Positions 22,401-25,813 of a DNA stretch of 64,000 nt are shown in pieces; the stretch's first letter is position 1, and each line of letters opens with the position of its first letter. Both the position numbers and the translations under genes were made by a program. The stretch comes from Bacteroidota bacterium. Lineage in GTDB: Bacteria > Bacteroidota > Ignavibacteria > Ignavibacteriales > Melioribacteraceae. The notes under the pieces were generated by a model. It made no database searches and had not been told where the DNA came from. It worked only from the letters and a program-made list of their open reading frames with translations. Where the stretch lies: assembly GCA_018829205.1 (NCBI GenBank), contig JAHJUE010000022.1, positions 186,001 to 250,000 of the forward strand. The letters are read 5' to 3'.

Positions 22401-22681
22401 TCGGCATAGTCTGCCTCATGTTTTGATCGGAAAGCTTTTTTAAACCATGATTTAGTATCGGGGATATCATTTATTGTATATCCAAGCAGTTCGGTAAATT
22501 TAGGACTTACGTAGGTAATTTCGTCGGATTCATTAATAAATATTACGGCAAACGGAGAGTTGCGTAAAACCTCAAAAACCTTTTTATAAATCAGGTTTAA
22601 TTCCCGGTTCGTTGGATTCCCGGATTTCATTAAATCTCCATTTGATGCTTTTATTTTATCCTTTGACAAATCATTCGGCAT
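19451..22681 (-). CDS. Multi-PAS/GAF sensor histidine kinase, cytoplasmic
   Basis: 1076 residues, no membrane segment. Order: PAS about 27-150, PAS 155-270, PAS 280-400, GAF 410-575, PAS 590-710 (LGLWDWEVQTG, a PAS fold-3 type), PAS 720-840, HisKA 855-925 with the phosphorylated His near 859 in MSHEIRTP, HATPase 960-1075 with NLINNAIKYT, DSGIGI and GNGLGLALV boxes intact. The many PAS modules suggest sensing of several small-molecule or redox cues in the cytoplasm. There is no receiver domain and no response regulator next to it, so its partner lies elsewhere. The gene starts a stretch with a repeat-rich 580-base upstream region and ends 117 bases before the ROK gene. Confidence 0.93.
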   Translation of the reverse strand: MPNDLSKDKIKASNGDLMKSGNPTNRELNLIYKKVFEVLRNSPFAVIFINESDEITYVSPKFTELLGYTINDIPDTKSWFKKAFRSKHEADYAEAEWTKDTVEKTGSISSNSFLVLDKNKNERIMKFSVIVTEVKSKFIFFEDITKRKISEEIIIESEEKYRSIVENSQSGIIIVGGDYLFNYVNAKFSEILGYSSSELIGRDFRDFLHQSSKQLVADRYKKRQRGENVPSVYQFKLVNKSGDIRTVQISSAVAKDKKGGLLTIAQMLDITDREYAEKKLIESETKYRRLFETAGDAIFILKDDLFIDCNSKTLELFNCTKEQIIGKPPYMFSPDKQYDGLSSKKKALLKINGAKSGVPQHFEWIHKKYSGELFDAEVSLNKVRIEGEDLLQAIVRDISERKKTEKHFEIRSRIEKTINEISSAFISVPFEKIDNSITSAIKKIVNLTSCDEGLLAEFSPDYKKIIYTHRWSRSENTESFYEIDTKSIKWWSLQMLNRKTVSVSNTFDLPQSADAEKKMFDAMGIKSIIDIPLVYNEKVIGFLGFNSKSGPLEFLPGEISLFNMLGQIFVNLLQRKKTEKNLRESEERLELALRGAELGLWDWEVQTGKIIFNENWAKILGYKLAEIKPSFESWQKLIHDEDYKKFRSAINDNLKGKTSFYEFEYRMKTKSGKWKWILDRGKVLQRDPNGKAVRAAGTILDITDKKSAEEALTKSEERFRSLFENSAFGIYQTTLEGKFELCNSSFLKIFGYKSFSEIADKDCSKSFYFSPKDREQFLVELFAKGKIEGKEVHYKNSKGLYVYVREFARIVNVNGKKLIEGAVEDISDKKLAELALLKAKEKAEESDKLKSEFLAQMSHEIRTPINTILSFSGLIKEELTGRLSSELEDSFGVMSRAGKRIIRTIDLLLDMSQLQTSTYEINYKKMDAYQKVIKDIADEYYYTAKEKKLKFEVVKKNENNIIIGDEYTVGQILHNLINNAIKYTHKGYVKVIIGKEKNNNVYIKVADSGIGISEDYLPNIFKPFTQEDQGYTRQYEGNGLGLALVKSYCELNNAEISVTSKKGKGTTFKILFKEEK

Positions 22682-22904
22682 ACATTACAATTTCCGGTTT
22701 ACAGAATCCCATTTCGCTGTTAAATAAAACTAAGTCCCTAACATGAGGAAATATATAGTCATTTTTTTTTATAAAATCAAAAATTGATTGATACTAATTA
22801 CCTTAATTTATTAAAGAAACATTAAACATATTAAGTTTTTCCCTTAAAACTCCTGCTGGTAATTTTACCTTATTTTTCATTACAGTAAGGGTGGATTGAT
22901 AAAA

Positions 22905-22929
22905 GAATGAATGAATGATTGATTGATTG
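22905..22929. repeat. Tetranucleotide tract (GAAT)3(GATT)3
   Basis: Three GAAT units run into three GATT units without a break. The same GATT/GAATG wording recurs beside the palindromes at 22943 and 24464. Confidence 0.85.
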
Positions 22930-22942
22930 TTTAGTATACTTG

Positions 22943-22956
22943 TCCGCAGCTGCGGA
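22943..22956. repeat. GC-rich palindrome, copy 1
   Basis: TCCGCAGCTGCGGA is a perfect 14-base palindrome in a GTCC...GGAT frame, followed by TGATTGAA. Related copies at 23161, 23442 and 24464. Confidence 0.8.
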
Positions 22957-22976
22957 TTGATTGAACTTTCTCACCC

Positions 22977-22997
22977 AAAGTTTAATACTTAAACTTT
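22977..22997. repeat. AT-rich perfect inverted repeat
   Basis: AAAGTTTAA (22977-22985), TAC, TTAAACTTT (22989-22997); flanked by CCC on the left and AGG on the right. Could fold as a hairpin in RNA from either strand. Confidence 0.8.
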
Positions 22998-23009
22998 AGG
23001 CTGTTAATG

Positions 23010-23087
23010 GAACGCGGATTTTTATGATTTATTAAGATCAATTAAGATTATCATAAACAATCATAACTATCATAACGATCTGTGTTC
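23010..23087. repeat. 78-base inverted element with internal ~10-base periodic repeats
   Basis: Ends GAACGCGGAT (23010-23019) and ATCTGTGTTC (23078-23087) pair over ten positions, eight Watson-Crick and two G-U. Inside, TTATGAT (23022-23028) is complementary to three ATCATAA units at 23050, 23060 and 23069, and ATTAAGAT occurs twice (23031, 23041). Spacing is 9-10 bases, about one helical turn. It looks like a small non-autonomous interspersed element rather than a gene. Confidence 0.7.
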
Positions 23088-23160
23088 TATTATTTTTATA
23101 TTCTTTCCAGATCAAATAAGTTTATTGCATTTGTCAAAGGCAGATTGATAATTATTATAG

Positions 23161-23174
23161 TCCGCCGCCGCGGA
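23161..23174. repeat. GC-rich palindrome, copy 2
   Basis: TCCGC-CGCC-GCGGA in the same G...T frame (GTCCGC to GCGGATTGA) as copy 1. Confidence 0.75.
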
Positions 23175-23228
23175 TTGAACCTATGAATTATTAATTTTGG
23201 TAGCAGATATTATTAATCCTTTAAAATG

Positions 23229-23257
23229 AAAAAGCCGTGCATTTTACACGGCTTTTT
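23229..23257 (-). terminator. Terminator of the tRNA-Gly/tRNA-Val unit
   Basis: Stem GCCGTG (23234-23239) with CACGGC (23247-23252), extended by A/T pairs; on the minus strand it lies just after tRNA-Val and ends in TTTTT. Confidence 0.85.
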
Positions 23258-23263
23258 GTTGAG

Positions 23264-23338
23264 TGGGAGCTATAGGATTTGAACCTATGACCCCCTGCTT
23301 GTAAGGCAGGTGCTCTGAACCAACTGAGCTAAGCTCCC
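23264..23338 (-). tRNA. tRNA-Val(TAC)
   Basis: 75 bases. Minus strand: acceptor GGGAGCT/AGCTCCC with discriminator A, D arm with GTTGG, anticodon stem CCTGC/GCAGG with loop CTTACAA giving anticodon TAC, T arm with GGTTCAAATCC. All canonical. The 3' CCA is not encoded. It follows the tRNA-Gly-like gene by 94 bases on the same strand and is followed by a terminator, suggesting one transcript. Confidence 0.97.
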
Positions 23339-23432
23339 ATTATAATACTAACAACCTAATGAACGATAAAAATTTCAGACTGTAATTATATGTTATTCTA
23401 TTATAATTTGCAACAAAAAATTATTTTTTTTG

Positions 23433-23505
23433 AGCGGGCGATCCCGCTTTGCGGGACGACATTCAGCTTGGGAAGCTGACACTCTACCAACTGAGTTACG
23501 CCCGC
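23433..23505 (-). tRNA. tRNA-Gly(CCC) with aberrant T arm
   Basis: 73 bases. Acceptor GCGGGCG/CGCCCGC with U73, D arm ACTC-AGTTGGTA-GAGT, anticodon arm TCAGC-TTCCCAA-GCTGA (anticodon CCC) and variable loop ATGTC are canonical for glycine. The T arm has the right 17-base length but reads GTCCC-GCAAAGC-GGGAT: T54, T55 and C56 are absent and the loop can pair further to leave only AAA. It cannot make the usual G18-U55 and G19-C56 contacts. The T arm equals a local palindromic repeat type. Either a decayed gene, a special non-canonical tRNA, or a sequence error; CCA not encoded. Confidence 0.75.
23442..23456. repeat. GC-rich palindrome, copy 3, inside the tRNA-Gly T arm
   Basis: TCCCGC-TTT-GCGGGA (plus strand), six-base arms. 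On the minus strand it reads GTCCCGCAAAGCGGGATC, matching the GTCCGCCGAAAGCGGATT of copy 4 at most positions. Confidence 0.75.
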
Positions 23506-23517
23506 GGAAAATTTTTA

Positions 23518-23547
23518 ATTATACGAATGATTGATTTAAAGTATAAA
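23518..23547 (-). promoter_or_regulatory. Possible promoter of the tRNA unit
   Basis: A perfect TATAAT on the minus strand (23523-23518) ends 12 bases before the tRNA-Gly 5' end. The -35 (TTTATA, 18-base spacer) is poor. Confidence 0.4.
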
Positions 23548-23697
23548 TATTCTCAATCTCTCAATCATTCTAACAGCCGTTCTCTCAAAGTATATAGCAA
23601 TGGAAATCACGGTTTAAAAATATATTTTACATGCGTCTATTTCAATAAAATTTATTTATCTTTGCTGACAATTTTTAACCATATATCAGCCGGTAGT

Positions 23698-24381
23698 TTG
23701 AAAAAACTTTCAAAAAAAGGGAAACAGAATTTAGAACTTGGCATTATCGCTTTAATTGTAATTATAACCATAATGTTATGGAATACAATCGCGATTTACC
23801 CGGTTAAATTATTTGTTGTACTGCTGCATGAAATCAGTCACGGTATAGTATCCGTATTATCGGGCGGACAGATAATTTCAATTCAAATAAGTGAAAACCT
23901 CGGCGGGCAATGTTTAACCAAGAGAGGAATTCCCTTTTTAGTAGCTTCGGCAGGTTATTTAGGGAGTCTTATATTTGGTTCGGCAATATTTATTTCATCA
24001 TACGATATAAAATACGGGAAATGGATTACTACATTTATTGCAGTAATTCTTCTTTTATTTACTGCTAATTTTATGACAGGCTCCATCGGTATAGTTTTAT
24101 CGCTTCTATTTGTTTTAATATTATTTTTATCGCCGAGGTACTTTAATAAAACAGTTCATAAATACTTAATGAAATCGCTGGGTTTGATAAGTTCTCTTTA
24201 TGTTTTGGTTGATATAAAGGAAGATCTAATTACATTTGCTTATAGAGAATCCGACGCGCATCTGCTGGCTAAATTAACCGGAATAAGCGCAATATTTTGG
24301 GGCGTGCTTTGGTTTATTATTTCCGCGATTGTTATTTATTTTTTATTCAGATTCGGTTATAAGAAAGGTTATAAAAAATAA
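23698..24381 (+). CDS. M50B-like membrane metalloprotease (HEISH)
   Basis: About 227 residues if started at TTG 23698; the reading frame is open further upstream into the tRNA-Gly gene, but that part is low-complexity and not protein-like. After LKKLSKKGKQ comes a first membrane helix, then VVLLHEISHGIVSVLSGG, the zinc motif HExxH inside a helix as in M50 site-2-type proteases, and about four more hydrophobic helices, ending in basic GYKKGYKK. It matches the small peptidase_M50B family (PF13398-like), whose substrates are unknown. No PDZ domain. TATCTTTG lies about 40 bases before the TTG and could be part of a promoter. Start is uncertain. Confidence 0.75.
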   Translation: MKKLSKKGKQNLELGIIALIVIITIMLWNTIAIYPVKLFVVLLHEISHGIVSVLSGGQIISIQISENLGGQCLTKRGIPFLVASAGYLGSLIFGSAIFISSYDIKYGKWITTFIAVILLLFTANFMTGSIGIVLSLLFVLILFLSPRYFNKTVHKYLMKSLGLISSLYVLVDIKEDLITFAYRESDAHLLAKLTGISAIFWGVLWFIISAIVIYFLFRFGYKKGYKK

Positions 24382-24408
24382 GTTGTAATTTAATATCATA
24401 ACAATCCC

Positions 24409-24463
24409 AATTCAACCATACAATCCAATCATTCATCAGCCATACATTCAGCCATTCATCCAA
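24409..24463. repeat. Degenerate ATTCAT/CCATTCA tract
   Basis: A run of variants such as AATCATTCATCAGCCATACATTCAG, on the minus strand a GAATG/GATTG tract like that at 22905. It abuts palindrome copy 4. Confidence 0.6.
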
Positions 24464-24478
24464 TCCGCTTTCGGCGGA
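24464..24478. repeat. GC-rich palindrome, copy 4
   Basis: TCCGC-TTTCG-GCGGA (plus strand). With flanks the minus strand reads TGTCCGCCGAAAGCGGATTG, like copy 1 with its TGTCC start and GGATTGAT end. Confidence 0.78.
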
Positions 24479-24493
24479 CAGGTCTTACACTCT

Positions 24494-25813
24494 CTAACTA
24501 CTTACTCGCCCAGTATCTTTAACTTTTGTTAAAATCAAAATTCCAATGACAAAAAATACGGCGATTGTAAGAATAGCCAGCCGCTGACTTCCCGTAGCGT
24601 AACTTACAATACCGAAAACCAGCGGACCTAAAATTGCAGAGCTTTTTCCGAAGAAGGAATAGAATCCGAAGAACTCTGTTTTTTTATCTGCGGGAGTGAG
24701 TTTTGACATTAAACTTCTGCTTGTCGACTGCGTTGCACCCATTACACTGCCGGCTAAAAGTCCTACTGCGTAAAAGCTTTCACGCTGCAGAATTACGGCA
24801 TCTCTTGAAAATAACCCTGATAACATTCTCATAAACGCATTTCCGGGATCGCTAGTGAAATATGCGAATATAATCGTAAGTATCCATATTACAAGTGAAA
24901 TATTGATTGATTTTTTCTGTCCGATAGAATCGGATATTATTCCAAATAATACCGATCCGGCTATGGCGGTAGTCTGCACAATTATAAAAAATATTATAAG
25001 TTCCTGCATACTAAAACCGAGAGTTGTGCTGGCATAATTTCCCGAGAAGAAAATAACGGTATTAACACCTTCGATATAAAAAAAGAAAGCTAGTAAGAAC
25101 ATGGCCAAGTTTTTATAACTTCTTAAATGACCAATAGTATGATAAACTCTTTTAAATCCTATTGAAAAATAAGACTCTTCGCGGATTACAACCTTTCTAT
25201 TATCTTTTAGAAAAATAAAAAGAGGCGCGGCGAAAATCAGGAAGAAAAGCGCCGAAACGGGGAATGTTTCTTTTATCATTTCGGCTTGTATAAACGGGAA
25301 TGCGATTGCAAGTGAAACGAGAGATCCTACATAACCCATCGCGAAGCCGTATCCGCTTACCCTTCCGTAATTTTTAGGCGATGCAAGTTCAGGAAGAAAA
25401 GCATCGTAAAATACAAGACCCGATTCAAATCCGATATTCGCGAGAATAAATAATATTAACGCGAAAAGTATGTCCCCTTCGCCGGTAAAATAAAGAAGTC
25501 CGGTAGCGGTAATGCATAATATTGTAAAGAATAAAAGGAATCTTTTTTTACCTGCAGAGTAATCGGCAATAGCGCCAAGAACCGGTGAAATAACTGCTGT
25601 AATAAGCATTGAAATGCTTGTGCCCAGACTCCAGTAAAAATCCCCGATCGATTCCCCCGAAGCAATAACTTTTTTAAAATAGACAGCAAACAGGAATGTA
25701 ACTATAACAATAGAATAAGAAGTATTAGCAAAGTCAAAAAGACTCCATATAAAGATCTTTGCTTTATTGTCTTTATTCTTTTGCTGAAGATTTTTTTGGG
25801 AGGGAAACGTCAA
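24494..25813 (-). CDS. UMF1 family MFS transporter
   Basis: 439 residues from TTG 25813, which has AGAGGA four bases before it inside the end of nusB (41-base overlap). Twelve hydrophobic segments; the first carries SLFDFANTSYSIVIVTFLF, the signature of the UMF1/Atg22-like MFS family, and the loop after helix 2 has DYSAGKKRFL. Members are thought to export small solutes such as amino acids; substrate is unknown here. Co-transcribed with nusB. Nothing indicates a drug-efflux role. Confidence 0.88.
   Translation of the reverse strand: MTFPSQKNLQQKNKDNKAKIFIWSLFDFANTSYSIVIVTFLFAVYFKKVIASGESIGDFYWSLGTSISMLITAVISPVLGAIADYSAGKKRFLLFFTILCITATGLLYFTGEGDILFALILFILANIGFESGLVFYDAFLPELASPKNYGRVSGYGFAMGYVGSLVSLAIAFPFIQAEMIKETFPVSALFFLIFAAPLFIFLKDNRKVVIREESYFSIGFKRVYHTIGHLRSYKNLAMFLLAFFFYIEGVNTVIFFSGNYASTTLGFSMQELIIFFIIVQTTAIAGSVLFGIISDSIGQKKSINISLVIWILTIIFAYFTSDPGNAFMRMLSGLFSRDAVILQRESFYAVGLLAGSVMGATQSTSRSLMSKLTPADKKTEFFGFYSFFGKSSAILGPLVFGIVSYATGSQRLAILTIAVFFVIGILILTKVKDTGRVSS

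Follow-up and report, generated by a model that had tools for sequence, protein, structure and literature searches.

Short palindromes that are dispersed through a genome and enter genes are known from several settings. The Rickettsia palindromic elements are short, dispersed and found entering genes, as reportedly are the short dispersed palindromes of cyanobacteria (SDRs) that Elhai is said to have described in 2008, and GC-rich palindromes are said, to go by the title of a 1981 report by Yin, to flank tRNA genes in Neurospora mitochondria. The palindromes described here resemble those of Neurospora mitochondria, and other organellar mobile palindromes, in their concentration at tRNA genes. 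The Neurospora palindromes differ in being organellar and in flanking the genes, and we know of no arm exchange among organellar mobile palindromes. Unlike SDRs and Rickettsia palindromic elements, the palindromes found here exchange a structural arm on its boundaries, and the copies that carry them are tied to GIY-YIG genes.

A second described system concerns the nuclease. In the sections of the source drawn on here, SegB of phages T4 and T6 is a free-standing GIY-YIG homing endonuclease encoded in a tRNA gene array, and the T6 enzyme cuts within tRNA genes, with a preference for the motif RAWTSGAAC, and causes tRNA segments to be amplified in tandem (PMC13096335). The linked open reading frames in the present study are, like SegB, small stand-alone GIY-YIG genes beside tRNA genes; unlike phage SegB, they lie in bacterial genomes and occur with palindrome-swapped tRNA copies, which those sections do not mention for SegB (PMC13096335). 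The reverse complement of the SegB motif, GTTCSAWTY, reads, we infer, as the T loop of a tRNA.

The window analysed here, a stretch of 64,000 nucleotides, contains a tRNA-Gly(CCC) gene (Table 1) whose letters on the minus strand, from 23505 to 23433, are GCGGGCG-TA-ACTC-AGTTGGTA-GAGT-G-TCAGC-TTCCCAA-GCTGA-ATGTC-GTCCC-GCAAAGC-GGGAT-CGCCCGC-T. The original prediction was that this gene is normal except for its T arm, which keeps a length of 17 bases, lacks TTC and may close to a three-base loop. Sequence and position are as predicted, nucleotides 1-49 closely match those of the relatives, and the account of the arm is borne out by both sequence and predicted fold: the loop GCAAAGC can close to AAA, and the arm is predicted to fold at -10.3 kcal/mol (ancestral arm, -6.6 kcal/mol), with two pairs gained. 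The whole gene is predicted to form a complete cloverleaf at -36.0 kcal/mol, against -32.3 kcal/mol for the ancestor. Among the features of a canonical elongator tRNA, the whole-model cloverleaf is present and T54-T55-C56 in a seven-base T loop is absent. The gene was not called by ARAGORN; its score against Rfam RF00005 extends over all 71 model positions, exceeds the gathering score of 29 bits and is the lowest among the 41 tRNAs of the 4.59-Mb genome.

Table 1. Positions of the tRNA-Gly(CCC) gene, its surroundings in the window and related loci elsewhere in the same genome
Feature	Position	Strand	Basis
tRNA-Gly(CCC), palindromic T arm	23433..23505	-	RF00005, 46.5 bits, model 1-71; orthologues in G011 and G037 identical over nt 1-49
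Exchanged T arm GTCCCGCAAAGCGGGAT; core TCCCGCAAAGCGGGA at 23442-23456, in relatives CGGGTTCGAATCCCG or close variants	23441..23457	-	Relatives and palindrome counts
Intact tRNA-Val(UAC), conserved neighbour of tRNA-Gly(CCC)	23263..23338	-	ARAGORN; Rfam, 76.5 bits
Pseudo-tRNA-Val T-arm remnant split by palindrome: TCATAGGTTCAA / TCCGCGGCGGCGGA / CTATA	23156..23186	-	Val match
Palindrome GTCCGCAGCTGCGGAT, adjoins GTTCAATCA on minus strand	22942..22957	.	Pattern match
Palindrome ATCCGCTTTCGGCGGAC, short class, no tRNA fragment recognised alongside	24463..24479	.	Pattern match
Stand-alone GIY-YIG beside tRNA-Arg(CCG), partial tRNA copy (L203)	C24:119570-119874
Stand-alone GIY-YIG beside tRNA-Leu(CAA), partial tRNA copy (L206)	C19:58548-59100
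Broken GIY-YIG remnant beside tRNA-Met, partial tRNA copy (L210)	C16:104597-105070
Pseudo-tRNA Pro (G000)	C4:10660-10800
Pseudo-tRNA Asp (G000)	C12:69340-69540
Pseudo-tRNA Ser (G000)	C12:42690-42710
Pseudo-tRNA Val (G000)	C8:8890-9215
Pseudo-tRNA Arg (G000)	C33:208530-208610

It had also been proposed that a repeat replaced the T arm in register, and comparison with 28 relatives, all at family or order level and none from the same genus, shows this to be right and fixes the direction of the change. A normal T arm, for example GCGGGTTCGAATCCCGT, is present in 28 of 28 relatives inspected, where the window gene has GTCCCGCAAAGCGGGAT; because all of them keep the normal arm, the sequences compared assign the exchange to the window lineage. 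Orthologues are near-identical to the window gene over nucleotides 1-49, fully so in G011 and G037. The outer stem pair G49-T65 is common to the ancestral and the exchanged arm, so that the change is a replacement of 15 bases by another 15, with the rest of the gene left as it was. In view of this clean 15-for-15 exchange we rejected simple decay by point mutation. No other tRNA with an in-register palindromic T arm was found among 391 genomes of the class, where the one further match to the pattern (G074) is not recognisable as a tRNA; a collection of 84,980 species contained six in-register T-arm palindrome matches, one of them a tRNA, from a Parcubacterium. Sequence matching also suggests that the tRNA-Gly(CCC) gene can be lost in relatives, some near-complete ones (e.g. 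G002, G039 and G015) having yielded no tRNA-Gly(CCC)-type match.

Outside the T arm, every part of the tRNA is intact and conserved, with no sign of decay, and since the rest of the gene is untouched, either the event is recent or some residual use persists. With T54, T55 and C56 gone, the elbow between D loop and T loop should be abolished together with the modifications usual there, and because the usual elbow should not form, the tRNA probably decodes weakly or not at all. No second tRNA-Gly(CCC) was found elsewhere in the genome among its 41 tRNAs; there is one gene per glycine anticodon, the other two being a normal tRNA-Gly(GCC) and a normal tRNA-Gly(TCC), and GGG accounts for 12.6% of glycine codons in the long open reading frames of the window. 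The UCC anticodon reads GGG by wobble, and a lone swapped tRNA-Gly(CCC) could be tolerated because tRNA-Gly(UCC) can read that codon.

The intact and conserved remainder of the gene, a predicted fold more stable than that of the ancestor and the lack of any other CCC isoacceptor in the genome would also fit a working tRNA or tRNA-like RNA, employed in decoding or in, for example, peptidoglycan synthesis. We consider this improbable, given that the TTC required for the elbow is missing, that the change is absent from all 28 relatives and that comparable swaps sit in redundant, often truncated copies, many of them with no usable anticodon. The peptidoglycan tRNA-Gly of staphylococci does have an altered T loop; it is present as extra copies with the anticodon UCC, unlike the window gene, which is a single CCC isoacceptor with a lineage-specific palindrome swap. 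Of the three explanations originally offered for the gene, decay comes nearest to the evidence, and a special glycine tRNA is not supported, the change being confined to one lineage.

The sequence that replaced the arm recurs in the genome. The palindrome RTCCSGCNNNGCSGGAY occurs at five sites in 4.59 Mb, against none for the reversed control pattern, and none is expected in shuffles of the window. Two of these sites form the T arms of pseudo-copies of tRNA-Val(GAC), arranged in tandem downstream of the intact gene; of the other three, one lies 65 bp from a tRNA-Thr, one falls in hairpin P12 of rnpB and one is the window T arm. The rnpB site was dropped as evidence of insertion, similar P12 tips in relatives indicating ordinary variation. 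A palindrome class shorter by one C has 24 genomic sites (2 in the control), and the looser pattern TCCCGN3-12CGGGA has 75 (8 in the control). About 10 of the first 50 listed sites of the looser pattern fall within 200 bp of a tRNA, where an estimate from 41 tRNAs in 4.59 Mb gives an expectation of about 0.2. Mobility of the REP/RAYT type was considered, and no link of it to tRNA loci was seen: as in REP/RAYT systems, short palindromes occur here in a genome with three Y1 transposase domains, but no tRNA lies near the three Y1 genes.

Palindromes were also found in copies of other tRNA genes, namely those for Gly, Val, Thr, Asp, Gln, Pro, Leu, Arg, Ser and Ile, in the same genome, in genomes of the class and in a Parcubacterium. 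Most are of the form TCCCG..CGGGA and lie in, or replace, a hairpin arm, the anticodon arm most often. When split copies of intact tRNA genes were counted at the loci collected up to then, with no palindrome required, 18 of 20 replaced segments proved palindromic, and most of the segments corresponded to the anticodon arm. A second method placed the boundaries of the swaps at 29-45 in Val and Pro, 26-42 in Gln, 28-44 in Leu and, in Gly, at 28-42, which is the anticodon arm minus its outer pair. The palindromes vary by locus (TCCCGC..GCGGGA, TCCCGAC..GTCGGGA, CTCCGAT..ATCGGAG and TGGCGCGC..GCGCCA), the stem being kept throughout. Some cases are out of register, such as the Asp copy of L235, which retains four extra bases of the old arm, and cases in the D loop and T loop were found as well. 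Swapped copies usually adjoin an intact tRNA; the window tRNA-Gly(CCC) has no intact copy in its genome.

Within that genome, palindromes occur in Pro(UGG) twice, in Asp(GUC) three times in a 77-nt tandem, in Ser(UGA) in the D loop, in three copies of Val(GAC) and in Arg(ACG) with anticodon and T arms changed, in Arg(CCG) in the D loop and in Met in the T arm. The Pro, Asp and Val pseudo-copies stand in tandem, and the Pro, Asp, Ser, Val and Arg copies escape standard tRNA finders. Besides the window gene, T-arm swaps affect Val(GAC) and, in Parcubacteria, Ile(GAU) and Leu(GAG): the Parcubacterium tRNA-Ile(GAU) copy is the same as its intact neighbour over nucleotides 1-48 and then carries GTCCCGCTAAGCGGGAC as its T arm. 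In a full-length copy of tRNA-Leu(GAG), which has an intact copy alongside, exchange has affected both arms and the acceptor stem is intact. Palindrome swapping of tRNA hairpin arms is a recurrent and apparently undescribed pattern, seen at sites that small, selfish GIY-YIG nuclease genes favour. The draft state of the genome (39 contigs) might prompt the view that the window arm is an assembly or sequencing artefact, an option that had originally been raised; we set it aside as scarcely credible because swaps of this kind turn up again in further tRNAs, in other genomes and in other phyla, with an architecture shared by several loci of this genome and by unrelated ones, and the gene lies inside a 520-kb contig.

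Several swap loci encode a stand-alone GIY-YIG protein of about 80 residues (PF01541, E 4e-14 to 5e-18), the open reading frame typically starting a few bases past the 3' end of an intact tRNA; swapped tRNA copies often stand on the flanks of such genes. Against PHROGs, one of three linked proteins matches phrog_5123, a GIY-YIG homing family, weakly (E 6e-4). A GIY-YIG gene lies within 300 bp of a tRNA at 29 of 35 loci, that is, at 26 of 30 in the class, a rate biased because the query used to find this set was itself tRNA-linked, and at 3 of 5 in the window's own genome, where the set came from a Pfam search that was not tRNA-linked; in the control for this comparison, 0 of 30 rnpB loci lay within that distance of a tRNA. 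Palindromes in tRNA-like copies were present at 17 of the 30 class GIY-YIG loci. At L108 and L089 the order is a 3'-truncated pseudo-Gly with palindrome, an intact tRNA-Gly(UCC), the GIY-YIG gene and a 5'-truncated pseudo-Gly with palindrome, and in the window's own genome a pseudo-Arg with a D-loop palindrome is followed by a GIY-YIG gene and the intact tRNA-Arg(CCG). No GIY-YIG gene was found, among the matches listed, near that genome's swapped Pro, Asp, Ser, Val and Arg(ACG) copies. We found no report of a chromosomal association of tRNA genes, GIY-YIG genes and palindromes in the open-access literature.

The Gly(CCC)-Val(UAC) pair of the window is also present in L054, L058, L062, L070 and G016, in each of which a GIY-YIG gene follows the pair. 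In L058, L062, L070 and G016 pseudo-Val copies whose anticodon arm is palindromic lie with this gene, and in L054 a degraded segment resembling such copies lies at the cluster of GIY-YIG gene and Gly-Val pair. Additionally, upstream of its intact gene G008 has pseudo-Gly(CCC) copies that stand in tandem and bear palindromes in the D loop.

In the window itself, a pseudo-Val remnant lies 76 bp past tRNA-Val on the minus strand. It matches nucleotides 49-60 of Val at 12 of 12 positions (E 0.010 in 2.1 kb); the match stops at a palindrome and picks up again as the Val bases CTATA. The pseudo-Met beside the GIY-YIG remnant on C16 has the same layout (GGTTCAA / TCCGCAGCGGCGGA), and because the pseudo-Val remnant shares it, palindrome included, we count the window locus, judging by its letters, as bearing traces of the arm-swap pattern without the nuclease: no GIY-YIG gene or remnant was found in 22600-24700 around the tRNA. 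Three similar palindromes had been noted within 1.6 kb of the gene, and they are present as members of the one-C-shorter class, one at 23160-23175 and the other two as listed in Table 1 (P about 1e-7 under uniform scatter). The palindrome at 22942-22957 pairs with 23143-23178 as direct repeat D2.

We propose, with a probability of roughly 60%, that the T-arm palindrome is the scar of a tRNA-targeting GIY-YIG homing element, and we infer both a causal role for the nuclease and inactivity of tRNA-Gly(CCC). The GIY-YIG nuclease would cut tRNA genes within the anticodon or T arm, and repair from a palindrome-bearing, uncuttable copy would yield a tRNA copy with a swapped arm, while survival of the cell would be secured by the intact copy that usually lies alongside. 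A lone swapped tRNA, in the window tRNA-Gly(CCC), could then result if copies recombined or the nuclease unit was lost; recombination of a 5'-intact with a 3'-intact pseudo-copy, for instance, would remove both the nuclease and the intact tRNA and produce a full-length tRNA with one exchanged arm. Several findings favour such a scar: the exchange is clean and specific to one lineage, palindromic arm swaps recur on arm boundaries, the Gly-Val cluster of relatives carries GIY-YIG genes and palindromic pseudo-Val copies, and the window retains a pseudo-Val remnant. The reverse complement of the SegB motif is present in the ancestral arm and absent from the exchanged one. Against it, most loci swap the anticodon arm rather than the T arm, the intact tRNA of the unit still carries the presumed target, no GIY-YIG gene lies at the window locus or is listed near several of the genome's own swapped copies, and the tRNA is not decayed elsewhere, which fits a recent event and also continued use.

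Alternatively, the nuclease would not be causal, and a very small mobile palindrome, comparable to SDRs, Rickettsia palindromic elements or mitochondrial GC clusters, would insert wherever it is tolerated, with tRNA copies and the surroundings of GIY-YIG genes as favoured landing places. In favour of this, many swapped tRNAs of the genome have no nuclease nearby, and the class is dispersed, most of its 75 sites having no tRNA listed nearby, and it occurs inside open reading frames (L079 and L103). Insertion would, however, lengthen the host sequence, whereas what is seen is the exchange of whole arms on structural boundaries, in many isotypes and often at equal length, and the palindromes are enriched at tRNAs and GIY-YIG loci; we therefore hold this explanation to be unlikely. 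A further reading, which we offer tentatively and with the odds against it, is that tRNA genes are subject to a natural cleave-and-rescue system made up of chromosomal GIY-YIG elements. The nuclease would destroy the resident tRNA gene by a cut in a hairpin arm, the element would bring an intact rescue tRNA, and palindrome-swapped copies would supply homology arms that the nuclease cannot cut. On this view the tRNA of the window would be a fossil whose rescue copy was lost since the tRNA was dispensable.

The wider pattern, apparently undescribed, joins GIY-YIG homing nucleases at tRNA genes with very small palindromic elements. If the homing-scar reading is true, bacterial tRNA genes are targets of tiny homing nucleases, the abundant small GIY-YIG genes gain a concrete target, and an explanation is at hand for arrays of pseudo-tRNAs that are missed or misread by annotation pipelines. 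So exact an exchange of hairpin arms of an RNA, made at the level of DNA, is in itself a surprising kind of change.

Some further arrangements were seen at related loci. At L079 and L103 (G048:C1), the open reading frame containing the palindrome resembles a C-terminal sorting domain, and one reads ..VGHPALRDSPDMATGIYFY... At L193, L243 and L245 of Parcubacteria BM519 (G401), and so in another phylum, copies of tRNA-Ile, -Leu and -Ser have arms exchanged or broken, and the Ser copy adjoins a GIY-YIG gene. Tandem arrays of palindrome-bearing pseudo-tRNAs stand beside an intact tRNA in L083 (G083:C26:278352-278755), L235 and L070, the units in this set being a 96-nt Gly, an 88-nt Asp and a 124-nt Val. 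GIY-YIG genes themselves occur in tandem at a spacing of 320-430 nt, for example in G035:C1:1384646-1385513 and G086:C1:3709346-3710400, as if whole units had been amplified.
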